Shown here: one piece after another, positions 1 to 46,787 of the stretch
Layout of the letters: every line of letters starts with the position of its first letter
Position numbering within the stretch: position 1 is the first letter of the stretch
Assembly: GCA_023265025.1 (NCBI GenBank)
Contig: JAHFUP010000034.1
Location: 1-48,754 of the forward strand
DNA length: 48,754 nt
Source: Acidimicrobiia bacterium
GTDB taxonomy: Bacteria; Actinomycetota; Acidimicrobiia; Acidimicrobiales; AC-14
Direction of reading: 5' to 3'
Made by a program: the position numbers and the translations under genes
The notes under the pieces: generated by a model
What the model was told of the DNA's origin: nothing
The model's input: only the letters and a program-made list of their open reading frames with translations
The model's database searches: none

Positions 1-88
1 CACCCTCCAGGACCGCGGCACTCGACATCATCTATTATCGTCGTTGGACGGTCGGAGATGGTGGATGGGCCCTTGCACGACAAGGGTT

Positions 89-2101
89 TCAGCGGGCTAT
101 GTCAGGAGTCCTGGAGTCGGCGTGACTCGCAACAAGCTCGCAGGTGTACCCGTCGTCGGTATCCCAGATGCGCACGGTGCGGTCCATCGAACCAGACGCC
201 AGCAATCCGCGTGTCGGTGACCAGTCCAGGGCGAGGACAGGGCCTTCGTGGCCACTTATTGTCTGGCGGCGAGCTCCTGCGGCGAGGTCCCAGACTGCGA
301 TTGTTGCGTCGTTCGACCCCGAGGCGAGCGACCGTCCGTCGGGCGACCATGTCAGGCACGTCACGGGAGCACCTTGGGCTCCGACGTCGGAAACCTGCGC
401 CGCCGAGTCGCCATCCCATATCGATATGTGAAAAGACAGGTCGGACAGGGCCAGCTTCGCATTATCCGGCGACCACGCCATGCCAAACGTCGAGTCCCAG
501 CTGGACCCATGGACGCTGTCCGTCGGCTGCCAGTCGATCGTGTGCCGATGGGCGAGGCCGCTGGCGTGCACCGGCGAGACGAGGCCAACCGTCTGCGGCG
601 AGTCCGACGCGGGCCCTATCGAAAATGCCTGGCAACCGAAGCCCGGAAGATCGAGGAAGAGCCCACTCCGGCGAAGCTTTCGCGCCGATCGCCGGAACGA
701 CGTACTCCCGAGGCGGTCCGATAGCAGCAGCGTGTCGCCGTCCGATACAGAGAAGTCGGCTCGGAGGTAACACTGGGAACGGTCAACCGAGAGGTTGACG
801 GCCACGAGGAGAGAGTCCGCTCCGTCACCCCACTGTGACGCCAGAATATTCCGGTAGCTAGAGTTTCCGCCCCAGGCGCTTGCGCTCTCGACGAGGTGCC
901 AGGAACCGTGGCGAAGCACCGGTTGTGCAAGGACGTCGAGCAGCCGGCGGTACATTGCCGCAAGCTCAACCTCGATGGGTTCGGCGGGCTGGCGCCCGAG
1001 TTGAACCGGCACCCTCGTCCTATATCCCTCGGCCTGGCCGTCATGAACCAGGCGCATGCCAGGGAGAGTCAAAACGAGAGTTGCCAGGGCGAAACTTGCG
1101 TCCCTGCCGAAGCGTTCCACTGCCCGCGGCTCATCGTGGTTCTCGATGAACCGGACGAGCCGGCGCTGGTAATGCAGCCCGGCTTGCAGGTGATCGGCCA
1201 CTAGGCCGGGGTCGCCGTTCAGGCGCTTGTAGAGCCTCTCGTCATACGTGAAGTCAAACCCCTGTGCTTGCAGCGCGAATCCCCGGTCGTCGTCGTCGAT
1301 CCAGTAAGCCTCTGCGATGAAGGCAAAGTCCGGGTTCTGCCCTCGCACCCGTTCGATCGCACTAGGCCAGAACTCGGCATCGGAATCATCAAAGAGTCCT
1401 CCCCAGACCCGGATGAAGTCCTTGCGAGTAAGCAGCATGGCCATGTCGCAGCGAAGCCCGTCGCAACGCTGCGAGACCATCTCGAGCTGCTCGGTCATCG
1501 CGACGCGAGTGTCGCCACGGCGGTAGTCGAGCTGCACCGTGTCCTGCCATGGAGGGAAGAACCCGTCCCGCCCGCATGCCAAGGCGACGTCTCCCCGTTG
1601 ACTACGTACGCCGATGTAGCCAGCCGGATCACGCGCAAGGTCGGCTTCAGAACCCTGGACGAAGCGCTCCGGGTGCGAGTCGACCCACGGATGGTCGGGC
1701 GCCAGATGGTTCGGGACGAAGTCCAGCACGAGGCCGATGCCCAGCCGCTGCAGGCGACCTCTCAGGACCTCCAGCGCATGGTCCCCCCCGAGATGAGCGT
1801 CGACGACATAGCGCCGGATTGAGTACGGCGATCCGACGAGGTCGTCCTCAACGAACCCAGGAAGCGCCTCACGGCACTCGGCGACCACCCGGGTATCCCG
1901 GAGCGCGATGGCCCGGGCATGCGGACTGCGCTCCCAGACACCCATGAGCCAGACGGCGTCGGGGTGGTACCCGGCTAATCGCTCGAGTTCCTCTTGGGGA
2001 ATCGTGGCAAGCGTGATTCCCTCATCGCTTTCGCGCCGGAGGCGATCAAGCCAGGTCCACGTGTTCATCTCCAGGACCACCGGGTGAGTCGGCCAGGGCA
2101 C
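89..2101 (-). CDS. GH13-like alpha-amylase family glycosidase fused to a C-terminal WD40 segment
   Basis: About 670 aa. The N-terminal part is an alpha-amylase-type (beta/alpha)8 barrel. The four conserved regions are visible: DFVPNH near residue 127, GLRCD with the nucleophile Asp near 219, FIAEAYW with the acid/base Glu near 264, and FIENHDEP near 320. It should therefore be catalytically competent on an alpha-glucan or related glucoside. From about residue 510 it carries WD40 blades, seen as repeated WSPDGRSLASGS and VRIWD motifs. Only three clear blades and part of a fourth are present, about half of a normal seven-blade propeller. No signal peptide is seen, so it is probably cytoplasmic. 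I chose the GTG start because homology-like sequence (VVLEMNTW) begins before the first ATG, which lies at 2068. Fold and active site are confident; the substrate is unknown. Confidence 0.85.
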   Translation of the reverse strand: MPWPTHPVVLEMNTWTWLDRLRRESDEGITLATIPQEELERLAGYHPDAVWLMGVWERSPHARAIALRDTRVVAECREALPGFVEDDLVGSPYSIRRYVVDAHLGGDHALEVLRGRLQRLGIGLVLDFVPNHLAPDHPWVDSHPERFVQGSEADLARDPAGYIGVRSQRGDVALACGRDGFFPPWQDTVQLDYRRGDTRVAMTEQLEMVSQRCDGLRCDMAMLLTRKDFIRVWGGLFDDSDAEFWPSAIERVRGQNPDFAFIAEAYWIDDDDRGFALQAQGFDFTYDERLYKRLNGDPGLVADHLQAGLHYQRRLVRFIENHDEPRAVERFGRDASFALATLVLTLPGMRLVHDGQAEGYRTRVPVQLGRQPAEPIEVELAAMYRRLLDVLAQPVLRHGSWHLVESASAWGGNSSYRNILASQWGDGADSLLVAVNLSVDRSQCYLRADFSVSDGDTLLLSDRLGSTSFRRSARKLRRSGLFLDLPGFGCQAFSIGPASDSPQTVGLVSPVHASGLAHRHTIDWQPTDSVHGSSWDSTFGMAWSPDNAKLALSDLSFHISIWDGDSAAQVSDVGAQGAPVTCLTWSPDGRSLASGSNDATIAVWDLAAGARRQTISGHEGPVLALDWSPTRGLLASGSMDRTVRIWDTDDGYTCELVASHADSRTPDIAR

Positions 2102-2231
2102 CGTTCGCCCGACCTAGACGCTTAGCGGCAGGAGATCCTCAAGCCTCCCGGCCGTCGTGTCCGCGCTCCGCCGCACGGTCCCAACAGTACCGGAAATGGC
2201 GTCTCGAGAGATGGCCGCCTCGCAGGTGGCA

Positions 2232-2930
2232 CTAGAAGTCGCAAAGAGGAACGACGACCGGGGGGTTCCCCAGGTCGACCGCTCGCCGGACGAGGTCGAG
2301 GTGGACGACCAGGTCGGCCCCGCACGGGGGCTCGCCGCTGTGGTCTTCATAGGCCACCTCGCCCGTCGTCGGTCGAAAGGCGAGCCGGATGGCGCGACGG
2401 AAGTGAACCGCCCGCTGCTCGGCTTCCTCGATCGCATCGAGCAGTCCCGCCTCGACCAACCACTCCTCTGCGCTCCACACGTCGGATCGGATCGTCCACA
2501 GGTGTGAACCCCTCGAGAGCGTGGCTACCCGTCTGGCAATCCACGGCGGTCCCCCGGGATCGGCCGCCATGGAGAGGCGGTAGTTCAGCACCGTTCCCGT
2601 GTTGGGGCCGGGCATGTAGGCGTTGGCCATGGCTTCGAACGGCCGGCCCTTCAACGTGCCCCTCAGCCCAATGCCTTCATGGCTGTGCTCCCCGTCGAGG
2701 GCATGACAGATGCTCTTCCAGGCCGACTCGTATGCCCGGTCCCGAGACCGCTTCTCCCACAGGGTCAACAGCACAAGCAGGACAAGCAGAGCGAACAAGA
2801 CAATGAATCGACCGAAGAACTCGCCGAAGTCGCAGCCCGACTTGAAGACGCACCAAGCGGCGATGATGGGGGTTCCCGCCGCCATCACCTGCACGACCTG
2901 CCGGTGAGAACGCCGCTCGGAACGCGTCAT
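2232..2930 (-). CDS. Hypothetical membrane protein
   Basis: About 232 aa from the ATG at 2930; the frame stays open further upstream but that part is Pro-rich and unlikely to be coding. Two hydrophobic stretches lie near the N terminus: AAGTPIIAAWCVF, then FIVLFALLVLLVLLTLW. A soluble domain of about 150 aa follows. I recognise no family. It runs in the same direction as the amylase gene downstream, 130 bp away, and no good ribosome-binding site is visible. Function is unknown; a membrane-anchored cytoplasmic domain is the simplest reading. Confidence 0.55.
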   Translation of the reverse strand: MTRSERRSHRQVVQVMAAGTPIIAAWCVFKSGCDFGEFFGRFIVLFALLVLLVLLTLWEKRSRDRAYESAWKSICHALDGEHSHEGIGLRGTLKGRPFEAMANAYMPGPNTGTVLNYRLSMAADPGGPPWIARRVATLSRGSHLWTIRSDVWSAEEWLVEAGLLDAIEEAEQRAVHFRRAIRLAFRPTTGEVAYEDHSGEPPCGADLVVHLDLVRRAVDLGNPPVVVPLCDF

Positions 2931-3068
2931 AGGACAACTATCGTCCGGGGCGACAGCGAGTTCCAGAGGTTTCGGACGGGTCGGCGGTGTCAGATTGGGC
3001 GGGAACGGATGGCGAACGGCGACCGGGTCCGCGGGAGGAACGAGGACCGGGTCCCGCAGGAGGAACAC

Positions 3069-3624
3069 CGGGTACGGGGCGTTGGCGACCCGGACTCAAG
3101 TCGCGGCTCCTGCAGGCTTCGGTCCCGCAAGGGGACCGGCTTGCGGAACGGGTCAGCGGCTTGACCCCTTTGCCGGGCGACGGCTGTGAGAGTCGGTGTG
3201 AAACACTCTCGGCCAGCACGAGATGGGCACCGTGCAACTTCTCATGCCGGCATCGATTACGGCGTGGGCCGGGGCCTCGACCCAGTGTCTCTTGCCCGTG
3301 CCGCTCGGCCAGCGAGGGCCAGGTTCTTGACCCGTCCCACCCACTCCAGGGGGTGCGCAAGGGCGACTGGGGTCGCGCCGGACGAGTCCTGCTCCCGCGA
3401 GCTGTCGAACGTCTCGCAGGCGGAGACCGGCGGCCTTGCTCCGCATGCCCCGGCTGACGGCGTCGCGGCCGGTAACTCAATGACTGGAAACTCGAGCGCA
3501 AGCAGCTCCGTCTCACTGGGGGCGCCTGGGTCGCCGTCATGCGCCACAGTCGCCTAACGCCTCGACCGGCGGCCAACGACCGGATGGCTGCGGTTGTCCC
3601 GTGTACCGTTATCAAGAGGCGACG
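3069..3624. other. Intergenic stretch without a convincing gene
   Basis: This stretch of about 550 bp separates the divergent membrane-protein and cyclase genes. Several open frames of 80-150 codons exist on both strands, but they are Arg/Pro/Ser-rich and lack recognisable motifs, as expected of chance frames in GC-rich DNA. I see no RNA gene or repeat. Promoters for the two flanking genes should lie here, but I could not place them confidently. Confidence 0.4.
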
Positions 3625-4572
3625 ATGGGGTCGGTCAACTCGGAGTTCTTCACGGTCCTGTTCACCGACGTCGTCGAGTCGGCGGCGTACTGGGAGCATG
3701 AGGCCCAGATGATGGCCGAGGCTGTCGTGGAGTACGACGCTCTGATCGAGGAAGCCCTAGCCGCCCACGGTGACGGCACCGCGGTGCGGCCCCGGGGCGA
3801 GGGCGATGGCCGCTTCCTGGTGTTCCACCACGCCAGCTCCGCCGTCGCCATGGCCCTGGCCACCGCCCGCCGGCTGGCGGTCACCCGGTGGCCCACCATC
3901 CGGCCCTTCGCGGTGCGCATGGCCCTCCTTACGGGCACGGCGGCGCGGCGCCAGGGCGACTACTACGGGCCCGACGTGAACCGCGCCGCTCGCCTGCGGG
4001 GTGTCGCCCACGGCGGCCAGGTGCTCCTGTCCCGGTCGACGGTCCAGGCCACCGAGGGGTCGTTGCCCGCACTGACCAGCGTCCGCGACCTCGGGCTTCA
4101 CCGGCTGAAAGACCTGTCCGCGGCGGAGCGCATTTTCCAGTTGGTCCACCCGGACCTGCCGCACGACTTCCCCCGGCTCGACACTCTCGACATGCGCCGC
4201 CACAACCTGCCGGTGGCCGTGTCCCAGCTCGTCGGCCGCGTCGAGGAGCTGGCCGAGGTGACAGGGCTCCTGGCGCAGGCTCGCTGCCTCGCCCTCGTCG
4301 GCCCGGCGGGCTGCGGCAAGACGCGTCTCGCCTTCCAGGCTGCGGCCGACGCGATCGAACGGTATCCGGACGGCGTCTGGCAGCTCGACGCCGACCCGAC
4401 CGTCGACGCCGAGGCGATCGCCCGGGTCGCCGGACTCCAGACGGTCGAGGACCTCGTCAAACAGAAGGTGCTGATCGTGCTGGACGGCTGCGAGCGGGCC
4501 CAACGCGCCGCCGCAGAGCTCTGCGACCGGCTGCTCCAGGTCGGCCCGCACCTGACGAGCGTCATCGGGTGA
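3625..4572 (+). CDS. Class III nucleotide cyclase domain plus truncated P-loop ATPase (regulator remnant)
   Basis: About 315 aa from the ATG at 3625, preceded by AAGAGG at good spacing. Residues about 5-175 form a class III adenylate/guanylate cyclase domain: FTDVVES supplies the first metal Asp, GEGDGRFLVF the second region, and YYGPDVNRAARL the catalytic Asn/Arg helix. A P-loop ATPase follows, with Walker A GPAGCGKTR and Walker B VLIVLDGCE. Family members usually continue for hundreds of residues through the rest of the ATPase, TPR repeats and often a LuxR HTH. Here the frame stops about 30 residues after Walker B. I infer a truncated signalling regulator. The cyclase half may still fold; the ATPase half is unlikely to work. 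Confidence 0.8.
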   Translation: MGSVNSEFFTVLFTDVVESAAYWEHEAQMMAEAVVEYDALIEEALAAHGDGTAVRPRGEGDGRFLVFHHASSAVAMALATARRLAVTRWPTIRPFAVRMALLTGTAARRQGDYYGPDVNRAARLRGVAHGGQVLLSRSTVQATEGSLPALTSVRDLGLHRLKDLSAAERIFQLVHPDLPHDFPRLDTLDMRRHNLPVAVSQLVGRVEELAEVTGLLAQARCLALVGPAGCGKTRLAFQAAADAIERYPDGVWQLDADPTVDAEAIARVAGLQTVEDLVKQKVLIVLDGCERAQRAAAELCDRLLQVGPHLTSVIG

Positions 4573-5029: not shown

Positions 5030-5086
5030 ACTGCGACCTGCTCGCCCGCGGTTCGAACGTCTATCATCAGGGTCCTTCGGAGTGAG

Positions 5087-5159
5087 TGGAGGTGAGCGGA
5101 TTCGAACCGCCGACTTCCACGTTGCGAACGTGGCGCTCTGCCAGCTGAGCTACACCCCC
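5087..5159 (-). tRNA. tRNA-Ala(CGC)
   Basis: Complete cloverleaf of 73 nt. The acceptor GGGGGTG pairs with CACCTCC and contains the alanine identity pair G3:U70. The anticodon loop TTCGCAA gives CGC, the T-loop is TTCGAAT and the discriminator is A. CCA is not encoded, in contrast to several tRNAs in the array at 43-47 kb. Confidence 0.95.
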
Positions 5160-43582: not shown

Positions 43583-43657
43583 TGGCTGCGAGGCCAGGAT
43601 TCGAACCCGGATTTCCTGGTTCAGAGCCAGGCGTGGTGCCGGTTGCACTACCTCGCA
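43583..43657 (-). tRNA. tRNA-Gln(CTG)
   Basis: Acceptor TGCGAGG/CCTCGCA, anticodon arm CCTGG-CTCTGAA-CCAGG, T-loop TTCGAAT, discriminator G, CCA encoded. U1-A72 and G73 fit glutamine identity. Confidence 0.92.
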
Positions 43658-43661
43658 TCGG

Positions 43662-43733
43662 TCTGGATGGAGAGACTCGAACTCCCAACCCCCGGCTCCC
43701 GGGGCCGGTGCGCTCCCATTGCGCCACATCCAG
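43662..43733 (-). tRNA. tRNA-Pro(CGG) with C33
   Basis: Acceptor CTGGATG/CATCCAG, D-stem GCGC/GCGC, anticodon arm CCGGC-CCCGGGA-GCCGG, T-loop TTCGAGT. C1-G72 and A73 fit proline. Position 33 is C instead of U. The next bases are CCG, not CCA. Confidence 0.85.
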
Positions 43734-43738
43734 TTGGC

Positions 43739-43806
43739 TGGCTCGTCCCGGAAGCACGCACTTCGGGCCTGCGGCCCGGACGCCTCTTCGAGGCGGGCGT
43801 GTTCCG
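43739..43806 (+). repeat. 68-bp structured repeat, copy 1
   Basis: Fills the gap between tRNA-Pro and tRNA-Leu. It folds into an 11-bp outer stem (CCGGAA-G-CACGC with GCGTG-TTCCGG) enclosing hairpins CGGGCC-TGC-GGCCCG and CGCCTC-TTC-GAGGCG. An inverted copy with 63/68 identity is at 45932-45999. All five differences fall in the same reading phase and are synonymous in the plus-strand frame at 43741. Confidence 0.8.
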
Positions 43807-43815
43807 GAACTCGGG

Positions 43816-43889
43816 TACTGACGGTCGGATTCGAACCGACACTGGCGGCGGTCTGAGCGCCGTGCCTCTCCCGGTTGGGCTACGTCAGC
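43816..43889 (-). tRNA. tRNA-Leu(CAG) with class I body
   Basis: Acceptor GCTGACG/CGTCAGT, anticodon arm CGGCG-CTCAGAC-CGCCG, T-arm GTCGG-TTCGAAT-CCGAC, A73. The variable region is only five bases, whereas bacterial Leu tRNAs have a long variable arm. Charging identity is therefore uncertain. Confidence 0.8.
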
Positions 43890-43891
43890 AT

Positions 43892-43967
43892 TGGTGGACC
43901 GAGCGGGAGTCGAACCCGCACCCTTCTCCTTGCAGGGGAGCTGCGCATCCGGTTGCGCTACCGGCCC
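43892..43967 (-). tRNA. tRNA-Ala(TGC) with C33
   Basis: Acceptor GGGCCGG/TCGGTCC contains G3:U70, the alanine identity pair. Anticodon arm GCTCC-CCTGCAA-GGAGA (G-A mismatch at 27-43), C at position 33. T-loop TTCGACT, A73, CCA encoded. Confidence 0.85.
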
Positions 43968-43968
43968 G

Positions 43969-44039
43969 TGGTGGCGGGGGCGGGGATCGAACCCGCGCGC
44001 AGGGCGTATGAGACCCCGCTGATCGCCAGATCCCCCGCA
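43969..44039 (-). tRNA. tRNA-Met(CAT)-like, short D-arm
   Basis: Anticodon arm GGGGT-CTCATAC-GCCCT, T-arm GCGGG-TTCGATC-CCCGC, A73, CCA encoded. The D region is only 15 bases (GATC-TGGC-GATC) and acceptor pair 1-72 is mismatched. An isoleucine tRNA read after lysidine modification is an alternative. Confidence 0.7.
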
Positions 44040-44049
44040 GTGATGGTGA

Positions 44050-44127
44050 TGGGGTGACCGGCCGGACTCGAACCGGCTTCTTCCGGGGCCACGTCCCGGC
44101 GTCTCGACCACTTCAGACCTCGGCCAC
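44050..44127 (-). tRNA. tRNA-His(GTG) with A32 C33
   Basis: Acceptor GTGGCCG/CGGTCAC, anticodon arm CCGGG-ACGTGGC-CCCGG, T-arm GCCGG-TTCGAGT-CCGGC, discriminator C73 as required for His, CCA encoded. Position 33 is C. Confidence 0.87.
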
Positions 44128-44129
44128 AG

Positions 44130-44201
44130 TCGACGAGGGAGGAGTCGAACCCCCGGCATCCTCTTTGTAAGAGAGGCGGTCTACCGCTGACCTACTCGTC
44201 G
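44130..44201 (-). tRNA. tRNA-Val(TAC)
   Basis: Acceptor CGACGAG/CTCGTCG, D-stem GGTC/GACC, anticodon arm CCTCT-CTTACAA-AGAGG, T-loop TTCGACT, A73. No CCA. Confidence 0.93.
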
Positions 44202-44206
44202 GCACG

Positions 44207-44279
44207 TCGGGCACCGTGGAGTCGAACCACGTCATGCCGCGGTATCAGCGCGGTGCCGTCTCCGTCTGGCTCGTGCCCG
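44207..44279 (-). tRNA. tRNA-Ile(GAT)
   Basis: Acceptor CGGGCAC/GTGCCCG, anticodon arm CCGCG-CTGATAC-CGCGG, T-arm CGTGG-TTCGACT-CCACG, A73. Canonical U33. Confidence 0.92.
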
Positions 44280-44282
44280 TTG

Positions 44283-44354
44283 TGGTCCCGGCAGTGCTCG
44301 AACCTGCTCCTGCCGGGCTTCAACCGGCCGCTCCACCATCAGAGCTTCAGGACC
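44283..44354 (-). tRNA. tRNA-Phe(GAA)
   Basis: Acceptor GGTCCTG/CGGGACC, D-stem GCTC/GAGC, anticodon arm GCCGG-TTGAAGC-CCGGC, T-loop TTCGAGC with one T-stem mismatch, A73. Confidence 0.9.
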
Positions 44355-44357
44355 ATG

Positions 44358-44448
44358 CCTCGCCCGGGAACAGGACGACCGGAGGGTGCGCCCTTGGCGG
44401 GCATTCATTTGCAGATGAAGTAGCCCCCGGTCTGCGCATCGGGCGAGG
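44358..44448 (-). ncRNA. tRNA-like structured RNA in array slot (Cys-like loop)
   Basis: 91-nt slot between tRNA-Phe and tRNA-Thr. A 9-bp outer stem CCTCGCCCG/CGGGCGAGG, an arm TTCAT-CTGCAA-ATGAA containing U33-GCA in a six-base loop, and a variable-arm-like hairpin GCCC-GCCAA-GGGC. There is no TTC T-loop. It shares GATGCGCAG and a GGGGG-to-CTTC segment with the degenerate Lys-like slot at 43483. Confidence 0.5.
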
Positions 44449-44456
44449 TGAAGCGG

Positions 44457-44530
44457 GGCCGGCGGCGGGGATCGAACCCGCTCTTTCTCGGTTACGACGC
44501 GAGCGTCCTTACCCTCAGGACCTCACCGGC
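44457..44530 (-). tRNA. tRNA-Thr(CGT)
   Basis: Acceptor GCCGGTG/CGCCGGC, D-stem GTCC/GGAC, loop GTCGTAA (anticodon CGT) on a stem with a 31-39 mismatch, T-arm GCGGG-TTCGATC-CCCGC. Discriminator C is unusual. Confidence 0.82.
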
Positions 44531-44585
44531 AGATGGTCTCGCCCGAGGTGGGCACGTCGGGCGGGACCGGGTACTGCAGGCTGCC

Positions 44586-45746
44586 TCAGGTCCCCTTGTA
44601 GTTGAGGACCTGATGCAGGGTGTGCAGGACGGTGACCAGGTCGGCCTGGTCGGCCATGACCTGGTCGATGTCCTTGTAGGCGGCGGGGATCTCGTCGAGG
44701 AGGGCGCCGGCCCGGTCCGCCAGCCACACCTTGCCGGCCATGGCCGTGGCCAGGTCGGCGTTGGTGAACAGCTTGCGGGCCTTGGTCCGGCTGTGGCGCC
44801 GGCCGGCGCCGTGGCTACACGACGTCCAGCTCGCCTCGTTGCCCTTGCCCTCGACGATGTAGCTGCGGGTGCCCATCGAGCCCGGGATGACGCCGAAGTC
44901 GCCGACGTCGGCCCGGATGGCGCCCTTGCGGGTGACCCACAGCTCGCGGCCCTGGTGGACCTCCTGCTGCGTGAAGTTGTGATGGCAGTCGATCCGGCGG
45001 GTCTGCTTGCCGGTGCCGATGAAGCGCAGCACCTCGGCCAGAGCCCGGTCCATCATCGAGTTGCGGTTGGCCTTGGCGTAGTCCTGGGCCCACAGCATGT
45101 CGGTGACGTAGGCCTCGAACTCCGAGGTGCCCTGGACGAACCAGGCCAGGTCGGGGTCTTCGAGGCTGAGGGCGGCCACCTTGGCCAGGCGCCGGGCCTT
45201 GGCGATGTGCATCTGGGCCAGCTGGTTGCCGATGCCCCGGCTGCCCGAGTGCAGGACGACCCACACCCGGGCCCGCTCGTCCACGCACAGCTCGACGAAG
45301 TGGTTGCCCGACCCGAGCGCGCCGAACTGCTTGGCCGCCTTGTCGGCCTGGGCCGCCGACAGCGACGTGGCCGGACGGTGGTTCGAGAGCCAGCGGCCGG
45401 CGGCGTTGCCGGCCTTGTCGTGGCCCTTGCCCACGCCAGCGGGCACGGCCCGCTCGATCGTGGCGAGGAGCGGCTCGAGGTCGTCGGGAAGCTGGTCCTC
45501 GGTGATGTCCAGCTCGGCCGCGATCATGCCGCAGCCGATGTCGACGCCTACGGCCGACGGGATCACGGCGCCCAGCGTCGGGATCACCGAGCCCACCGTG
45601 GCACCGATGCCCACGTGAGCGTCGGGCATGAGGGCCACGTGGCCCTCGACGATGGGCAGGCGGGCCGTCTTCTCGGCCTGGCGGATGGTGTCGGGCTCGA
45701 TGTCGCTCGCCCAGGAGACGAGCTTCGGGTTGATGGTCGTGGGCAT
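44586..45746 (-). CDS. rtcB: RNA ligase RtcB
   Basis: 386 aa from ATG with AGGAGG nine bases or so upstream. RtcB joins 2',3'-cyclic phosphate (or 3'-phosphate) to 5'-OH RNA ends using GTP and Mn2+, repairing or splicing tRNA. Metal and GTP motifs: VGVDIGCGMIAAEL, GSGNHFVELCVD, LHSGSRGIGNQ, HHNFTQQEVH, GSMGTRSYIVEGKG and SCSHGAGRRHSR, where the HGAGR His is the guanylylated residue. It lies in the middle of the tRNA array, 55 bp from tRNA-Thr and 35 bp from tRNA-Gly, all on one strand. The obvious substrates are the flanking tRNAs or their precursors. Confidence 0.96.
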   Translation of the reverse strand: MPTTINPKLVSWASDIEPDTIRQAEKTARLPIVEGHVALMPDAHVGIGATVGSVIPTLGAVIPSAVGVDIGCGMIAAELDITEDQLPDDLEPLLATIERAVPAGVGKGHDKAGNAAGRWLSNHRPATSLSAAQADKAAKQFGALGSGNHFVELCVDERARVWVVLHSGSRGIGNQLAQMHIAKARRLAKVAALSLEDPDLAWFVQGTSEFEAYVTDMLWAQDYAKANRNSMMDRALAEVLRFIGTGKQTRRIDCHHNFTQQEVHQGRELWVTRKGAIRADVGDFGVIPGSMGTRSYIVEGKGNEASWTSCSHGAGRRHSRTKARKLFTNADLATAMAGKVWLADRAGALLDEIPAAYKDIDQVMADQADLVTVLHTLHQVLNYKGT

Positions 45747-45781
45747 GACGGACACCTCCTCTCGGTGTAGTTGTGCCTCGG

Positions 45782-45854
45782 TGTGGTCGGAGGGAATCGA
45801 ACCCTCGTCGCCGGCGTGGCGTGCCGGGATCCTTGTCCGTTGAACGACGACCAC
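45782..45854 (-). tRNA. tRNA-Gly(GCC) with A32 C33
   Basis: Acceptor GTGGTCG/CGACCAC, anticodon arm CCGGC-ACGCCAC-GCCGG, T-arm GAGGG-TTCGATT-CCCTC, A73. Position 33 is C, as in the His tRNA of the array. Confidence 0.88.
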
Positions 45855-45858
45855 GAGA

Positions 45859-45930
45859 TGGACGCCCGAGCAGGACTCTCACCTGCGTGACGCGGTTTGC
45901 AGCCGCGTGCCTGAATCCTCGGCCCGAGCC
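45859..45930 (-). tRNA. tRNA-Cys(GCA)-like, degenerate
   Basis: Anticodon arm CGCGG-CTGCAAA-CCGCG and discriminator U73 with encoded CCA fit cysteine. The T-loop reads TGAGAGT rather than TTC-type, and I find no matching 5' acceptor strand. The 5' boundary is an estimate. Confidence 0.5.
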
Positions 45931-45931
45931 T

Positions 45932-45999
45932 CGGAACACGCCCGCCTCGTAGAGGCGTTCGGGCCGCTGGCCCGAAATGCGTGCTTCCGGGGCGAGCCA
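45932..45999 (-). repeat. 68-bp structured repeat, copy 2 (inverted)
   Basis: Reverse-complement copy of 43739-43806 with five differences. All hairpins are retained; differences are in loops, unpaired positions, or change a G-U to an A-U pair. It fills the gap between the Cys-like and Asn tRNAs. Confidence 0.8.
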
Positions 46000-46011
46000 C
46001 CGGGCGTGGCG

Positions 46012-46083
46012 CTGCCAGGGAAGGGGTCGAACCTTCGTCCTCCGGGTAACAGCCGGCTGTCCATGCCACTGGACCACCTGGCA
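46012..46083 (-). tRNA. tRNA-Asn(GTT)
   Basis: Acceptor TGCCAGG/CCTGGCA, D-stem GTCC/GGAC, anticodon arm GCCGG-CTGTTAC-CCGGA, T-arm GAAGG-TTCGACC-CCTTC, G73. U1-A72 with G73 fits asparagine. Confidence 0.9.
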
Positions 46084-46093
46084 ATCGATTGGG

Positions 46094-46165
46094 TACCGCG
46101 ACGGGGAGTCGAACCCCGGCTTCCGGGATGAGAACCCGGCGTCATGACCACTTGACGATCGCGGC
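46094..46165 (-). tRNA. tRNA-Glu(CTC)
   Basis: Acceptor GCCGCGA/TCGCGGT, D-stem GTCA/TGAC, anticodon arm CCGGG-TTCTCAT-CCCGG, T-arm CGGGG-TTCGACT-CCCCG, A73. Confidence 0.92.
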
Positions 46166-46170
46166 GAGAG

Positions 46171-46256
46171 CGGAAGCGGGGCGACTCGAACGCCCACGGG
46201 CCGTGAGACCCGTACCTGTTTTCGAGACAGGCTCCTCATCCAGCCGGGTCGCTTCC
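46171..46256 (-). tRNA. tRNA-Ser(CGA)
   Basis: Class II. Acceptor GGAAGCG/CGCTTCC, anticodon arm CCTGT-CTCGAAA-ACAGG, long variable arm ACGGG/CCCGT, T-arm GGGCG-TTCGAGT-CGCCC, G73. Confidence 0.94.
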
Positions 46257-46263
46257 TCGTCAG

Positions 46264-46350
46264 CAGCGGAAGGGGCGAGACTCGAACTCGCACGGGCGTG
46301 ACCCCGTACCCGGTTAGCAACCGGGCTCCTGATCCGGCCGGATCCCTTCC
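46264..46350 (-). tRNA. tRNA-Ser(GCT)
   Basis: Class II. Acceptor GGAAGGG/CCCTTCC, anticodon arm CCCGG-TTGCTAA-CCGGG, variable arm ACGGG/CCCGT, T-arm GCGAG-TTCGAGT-CTCGC, G73. Very similar to the neighbouring Ser(CGA), suggesting duplication. Confidence 0.94.
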
Positions 46351-46381
46351 GTGGGCTGCACCTAGGGCCGGGTCGGCTCGG

Positions 46382-46454
46382 CCTCGCCGGCACGATTCGA
46401 ACGTGCGACGCCCGCCTTCGGAGGGCGGTGCTCTCTCCACTGAGCTACAGCGAG
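46382..46454 (-). tRNA. tRNA-Arg(CCG)
   Basis: Acceptor CTCGCTG/CGGCGAG, D-stem GCTC/GAGC, anticodon arm CCGCC-CTCCGAA-GGCGG, T-arm GCACG-TTCGAAT-CGTGC, G73. Confidence 0.93.
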
Positions 46455-46455
46455 G

Positions 46456-46531
46456 TGGTGTCGACGGCAGGGGTCGAACCTGCACCCTCCGGCTTCGTAG
46501 GCCGGTGCCCTCTCCATTGGACTACGTCGAC
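46456..46531 (-). tRNA. tRNA-Arg(ACG)
   Basis: Acceptor GTCGACG/CGTCGAC, anticodon arm CCGGC-CTACGAA-GCCGG, T-arm GCAGG-TTCGACC-CCTGC, A73, CCA encoded. A34 would need deamination to inosine for full CGN reading. Confidence 0.93.
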
Positions 46532-46534
46532 GAG

Positions 46535-46611
46535 TGGCGCCACCGACGGGACTCGAACCCGTGGCCCTCTGCTCGACAGGCAGTTGCTCTGACCGGCTGA
46601 GCTACGGCGGC
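46535..46611 (-). tRNA. tRNA-Asp(GTC)
   Basis: Acceptor GCCGCCG/CGGTGGC, D-stem GCTC/GAGC, loop CTGTCGA on a CTGC/GCAG stem, T-arm ACGGG-TTCGAGT-CCCGT, G73, CCA encoded. Confidence 0.92.
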
Positions 46612-46620
46612 GTGTACGCG

Positions 46621-46694
46621 TGCGCGCCCTGGGCCTCGAACCCAGTCTTCTCCGGGGTAAGAGCCCGGTGCCCTACCTGTCAGGCGTGACGCGC
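46621..46694 (-). tRNA. tRNA-Lys(CTT)
   Basis: Acceptor GCGCGTC/GGCGCGC, anticodon arm CCGGG-CTCTTAC-CCCGG, T-arm CTGGG-TTCGAGG-CCCAG, A73. Confidence 0.9.
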
Positions 46695-46705
46695 ATTGTT
46701 GGTCG

Positions 46706-46787
46706 TGGGTCGGAGAGGAATCGAACCCCCTGTGTCGGAAAGACGGCTGGATTACCGCCAGCTGCGCCCCCATGGCGCGACCGACCC
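46706..46787 (-). tRNA. tRNA-Tyr(GTA) with G33
   Basis: Class II, as expected for bacterial Tyr. Acceptor GGGTCGG/CCGACCC, D-stem GCGC/GCGC, anticodon arm GCTGG-CGGTAAT-CCAGC, short variable hairpin GTC/GAC, T-loop TTCGATT, A73. Position 33 is G. Confidence 0.83.

Follow-up and report, generated by a model that had tools for sequence, protein, structure and literature searches.

Organization of the locus

The window, by which we mean the whole stretch of 48,754 nucleotides that was analysed, is one entire contig, C146; the draft genome to which it belongs comprises 185 contigs and 5.45 Mb. Near its start lies a gene in which an alpha-amylase-family (GH13) domain continues in frame into WD40 blades; the frame is open throughout, as the first-pass annotation had described. 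The features needed for the analysis are the following.

1..114, no strand: end of a multi-copy insertion element with its outer tip at 114, recognized by its recurrence at four other contigs
89..112, minus strand: amino acids 664-670 and the stop codon, encoded by the element and not by the host gene, as judged from their position relative to the boundary at 114
89..2101, minus strand: open reading frame of 670 amino acids, uninterrupted
115..118, no strand: AGTC adjoining the element; all 11 exact tips in this genome are followed by ANTC
125..238, minus strand: WD40 blade 3, amino acids 622-659, four strands (PF00400 match 161-268, 48.6 bits; tail model)
254..364, minus strand: WD40 blade 2, amino acids 580-616, four strands (PF00400 match 287-370; tail model)
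377..490, minus strand: WD40 blade 1, amino acids 538-575, four strands (tail-model strands 19-24, 30-35, 39-44 and 50-56; alignment)
491..601, minus strand: linker between GH13 domain and propeller, amino acids 501-537 (no Pfam best stretch; low confidence in both models)
602..2101, minus strand: complete GH13 alpha-amylase-family domain, amino acids 1-500, with a GTG start at 2101 (PF00128, homologues, model)
1133..1135, minus strand: Asp323 of GH13 region IV (NHD), invariant in 31 sequences
1310..1312, minus strand: Glu264 of GH13 region III, invariant in 31 sequences
1445..1447, minus strand: Asp219 of GH13 region II, invariant in 31 sequences
1706..1723, minus strand: GH13 region I, DFVPNH, amino acids 127-132, in which 31 sequences all share D127, V129, P130, N131 and H132

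Elsewhere in the window, 19 of its 22 tRNA genes form a dense array at 43583-46787, all on the minus strand and serving many different amino acids. A frame with guanylate-cyclase and AAA_16 domains (3601-4572) stops at 323 amino acids, which seems short for proteins of this composition; it is perhaps broken or a small variant.

The GH13 domain

The Pfam Alpha-amylase family PF00128 matches the N-terminal part with an E-value of 2.1e-11 (44.2 bits against a cut-off of 22), and the domain shares 42-49% identity with 34 aligned standalone bacterial homologues. An alignment of 31 sequences, among them that of the window, shows no variation at D127, N131, H132, R217, D219, E264, N321, H322 and D323, which together with the Pfam match bears out the first-pass statement that all four alpha-amylase regions are intact. 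We take Asp219 to be the nucleophile and Glu264 the acid/base catalyst, while Asp323 is presumably the transition-state residue. In a model of the whole protein the pLDDT is mostly above 90 up to about residue 500, and the GH13 fold, consisting of a barrel and a C-terminal beta domain, is present: residues 3-496 were aligned to 3dhu_A with a Z-score of 34.2 and an rmsd of 3.2 over 399 residues. The enzyme itself is of an ordinary and widespread type. It most likely hydrolyses or transfers alpha-glucans, and the substrate could be, for example, pieces of maltodextrin or glycogen.

The WD40 blades

The C-terminal part matches the Pfam WD40 family PF00400 with an E-value of 6.6e-21. Because the pLDDT of the whole-protein model falls below 50 from residue 502 onward, the tail (residues 520-662) was folded separately together with 13 WD40 rows. 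The resulting model has a mean pLDDT of 88.3 and contains 12 strands that make up three four-stranded blades, spanning residues 538-659. Of the three to four blades proposed originally, three are therefore present and a fourth is not. The last strand ends at residue 659, three residues before the break that is described below. The main text of PMC5587647, in which the words 'amylase', 'hydrolase' and 'glycosid' do not occur, gives seven repeats for most WD40 proteins; here three blades precede the element boundary and the closed ring of a propeller is not reached. The tail has no close relative that could be regarded as its donor: among 148 relatives the best identity is 38%, and within its own genome it is 37%.

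A repeated element end at the contig start

Contigs C162, C66 and C8 of the same genome carry at an end a 99% identical copy of window bases 1-118, and C71 carries one of bases 3-118, each match coming within 3 bases of a contig end. Sampled in blocks of 14 bases, the five copies have an identity of 1.00 up to base 114 and of 0.21-0.42 beyond it, the outermost block being comparable in four of the five. The 14-base tip followed by ANTC occurs exactly at 11 places in the genome, none of them more than about 125 bases from a contig end. An exact tip lacking ANTC would have appeared in this search of the genome, which tolerated 3 mismatches, and none was present. Behind the 11 exact tips two kinds of interior are found, five like that of the window and six of another kind. 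The same tip is carried by both, and no contig spans a whole copy. We infer that the two kinds are opposite ends of a single repeated element, which the assembler failed to cross, and that the repeat arrived here by transposition.

The bases next to these tips bear on a possible target duplication. The other left ends continue with AATC (two) or ATTC (two), and possible complementary opposite ends read ATTC (three) and AATC (two). For the AGTC of the window, the complementary ACTC that would be expected if ANT is duplicated as three bases is absent from all six opposite ends. A genome of the same family (G006) carries an 84% identical element end at two places, both at contig ends; read outward, one is followed by AATC and the other by CTTC, which does not conform to ANTC. 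Plasmid records gave weak and short matches only to the element end.

At the six opposite ends a reading frame terminates whose last part looks, by eye, like the C-terminus of a complete 624-amino-acid protein encoded on contig C115. The latter belongs to the Transposase_29 family (PF21804, E 5.4e-53) and matched one plasmid record. As the element's own transposase was not found in the assembly, the family is assigned through this related copy, and the element of the window is probably of this kind as well. Variant tips (GTCAGGAGGTCTGG and GTAAGGAGGTCTGG) mark a second group of element ends, which likewise lies near contig ends at L031, L032, L039 and L042 (C163, C184, C77 and C115), and a third group occurs in C107 and C115. 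Several related elements thus seem to break this assembly.

Since the repeated element takes up bases 1-114, it is element DNA that provides the final seven codons of the reading frame together with its stop. The gene's own DNA extends to base 115, and codon 663 (113-115) is mixed, being part gene and part element. The native C-terminus of the GH13-WD40 protein is absent from the window. The suggestion that the protein might be truncated is thereby supported, with the end of a repeated element interrupting the gene after blade three. For dimerisation, the other possibility raised in the first-pass annotation, the results gave no support.

Search for the remainder of the gene

If the gene was interrupted, its remaining blades might be expected beside another element end. 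A WD40 model was made from 13 blades of contig C155 and used to scan 15 element-related contig ends over their first 1500 bases. This model is only modestly sensitive (17.5 bits for the window's own blades); with it the window's own end was significant (6.8e-5) and the 14 other ends gave no significant WD40 match. The ends of C89 (0.38) and C184 (0.63) were among those not significant in the scan, and the flank in C89, which looks like a TolB propeller by eye, reads toward the element, the wrong direction for the missing half. Other WD40 matches above the family cut-off exist in the genome, none of them at contig ends. The genome-wide WD40 search, the tip search and the scan of contig ends thus did not locate the rest of the gene in the assembly. 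Either the assembly lacks the missing blades or they have been lost by deletion. The gene would once have encoded more blades, and the usual blade number points to a seven-bladed original.

Occurrence of the fusion

For comparison, 86 homologous loci were collected, comprising the best 80 of 573 loci confirmed in a profile search with the GH13 alignment and six loci from other searches; a distant relative (L015, 27% identity) was left out. In this set of the best 80 plus six, a WD40 tail is found in none, and all proteins end at most 37 amino acids past the GH13 domain, fewer than 600 downstream bases being available at four of the loci. The fusion had been called uncommon at the outset, and this count agrees. 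The same set answers the proposal that seven-bladed homologues might exist and be interrupted here by a frameshift: it holds no bladed homologue, and the break in the window is the boundary of an insertion element. Two apparent exceptions were discarded. An extension of 456 amino acids at L104 arose from an alignment that had passed through the stop at the end of the GH13 domain, and the one WD40-tail match among the 86 loci, at L083, lies about 4 kb downstream of the GH13 gene. Six further matches read by eye showed no WD40 repeats in the frames shown; among them, the frame of L141 is disrupted close to its end and L146 begins at the edge of a contig.

A search of contigs with the full-length protein found no relative. 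The GH13 domain was present in eight other genomes in searches of 60, 397, 395 and 396 genomes at E-value limits of 1e-30 to 1e-60; these sets overlap and include the genome studied here, and in the three larger ones at most 3 candidates were scored per genome. The two genomes of the same genus gave no match at 1e-30. No paper on a GH13-WD40 fusion could be recognized by title among the literature matches. The join is unusual and is seen in one genome only. A glucosidase of MGH1/GH63-like type is encoded in the DNA around 48 of the 86 homologue loci (the best 80 of 573 plus six), so a glucan-processing gene pair is a common setting of these enzymes.

Base composition and the possibility of a chimera

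The GH13 part has a GC content at third codon positions (GC3) of 0.750, the WD40 part 0.722 and the next gene 0.796; four other measured genes of the window range from 0.906 to 0.942. The similar composition of the GH13 and WD40 parts suggests that they are one piece of DNA, which was perhaps acquired from elsewhere. The 36 codons of the linker (amino acids 501-536) have a GC3 of 0.917, unlike both domains. On a larger scale, GC is about 0.62-0.67 over positions 1-3068, where two genes have GC3 values of 0.75 and 0.80 against 0.906-0.942 in the four genes beyond the tRNA-Ala gene (5086-5159), and this part is possibly an acquired segment. A tRNA-linked island was considered and rejected: no exact repeat of the tRNA-Ala gene of at least 14 bases occurs in the window.

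These data bear on whether the gene is real in the form assembled. The junction of GH13 and WD40 could be an assembly chimera of two unrelated genes near the contig end, the break by the element being a separate matter. The lack of any fused protein among the 86 homologues (again the best 80 of 573 plus six), the restriction to one assembly and the position of the junction, on a single contig and within about 600 bases of its end, would be consistent with this, as would the deviating linker. However, the frame stays open across the junction and the two domains are alike in GC3. A misjoin is also opposed by the genome itself, in which a second GH13 copy was not found and the other WD40 matches above the cut-off do not lie at contig ends. 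On balance we consider a chimera unlikely. The composition of the linker and the proximity of the contig end nevertheless keep it in consideration, and they lower our confidence in the explanation given below.

Interpretation

In view of these results, we think it likely that the locus holds a GH13-WD40 gene, joined in frame, that was cut after blade three by a multi-copy insertion element. According to this explanation, a GH13 alpha-amylase-family gene would first have been joined in frame to WD40 repeats. An insertion element, probably of the Transposase_29 kind, would then have inserted at a GANTC-like site just past the third blade and would supply a stop after seven codons. The expected product would retain the whole GH13 domain and carry behind it three blades unable to close into a ring; the remaining blades would sit beyond the element. 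The open blades would probably be a disordered or degraded remnant. Before the insertion, the encoded GH13 enzyme may have carried a full WD40 propeller at its C-terminus, which would have tethered it to a glucan particle or a partner protein, a proposal that we make tentatively and to which we give slightly less than even weight.

Alternatively, the three blades could form a half propeller that is complete and under selection, the ring being closed by pairing with a second copy or with a different protein. Three blades cannot close alone, and the break comes just past a complete blade, both of which would fit such a design. Yet the C-terminus is encoded by a repeat end that is found also at four other contigs, and none of the 86 homologues compared (best 80 of 573 plus six) has blades, which makes a half propeller very improbable. 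Because the break lies at the element boundary, the three-blade tail is better regarded as the visible remainder of an interrupted gene than as an architecture. That the frame was broken by a frameshift or sequencing error instead of an insertion is scarcely credible: the contig does end soon after the stop, but a scan of its first 1500 bases in all six frames detected WD40 in a single frame piece, and copies of bases 1-114 stand beside unrelated neighbours elsewhere.

Interruption by an element has a wider implication for draft genomes. At the end of a contig, an insertion element can mimic a new protein architecture, with an intact frame, a plausible stop and last residues that are element-encoded. 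Such cases are settled fast by checking if the outermost bases of the contig are found again at the ends of others.

Comparison with known systems

Among solved structures the best match by fold is the alpha-amylase of Lactobacillus plantarum (3dhu, Z 34.2); GlgE (4u33, Z 33.2) and AmyB of Thermotoga neapolitana (4gkl, Z 32.8) share the fold as well, the last being the best match by sequence profile (E 2.6e-27). All three share only 20-23% identity with the GH13 domain, and the substrate cannot be inferred from them. Closer relatives are standalone bacterial GH13 proteins such as those of Rhizobium (WP_260111333.1) and Caballeronia (WP_213234348.1), which are 43% identical over the GH13 domain and have all four regions. 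Unlike the protein of the window, they stop at the end of this domain. The genomic setting differs as well: whereas a glucosidase is encoded in the DNA around the GH13 gene at many homologue loci, none is present in the window, and the MGH1/GH63-like glucosidase of this genome is on contig C70.

The element resembles Transposase_29 (PF21804) elements in that a related copy in the same genome combines this transposase with a similar tip followed by ANTC. It belongs to a different subgroup from the copy in C115, and its interior was not found in the assembly.

With bacterial WD40 beta-propeller proteins the tail shares the PF00400 repeats and the four-stranded blades, although three blades only are present here. 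Other frames with WD40 repeats occur in the same genome. L054 on contig C128 is a BTAD-nSTAND1-WD40 frame of 1751 amino acids, L055 on C107 a TIR-WD40 frame of 546, and L053 on C155 a frame of 1279 in which similar repeats, at least 13 in number, follow one another at a period of 126 bases and the front part is TIR/NB-ARC-like by eye. WD40 repeats that follow signalling domains elsewhere in the genome offer a parallel for the tethering propeller proposed for the original GH13 enzyme.
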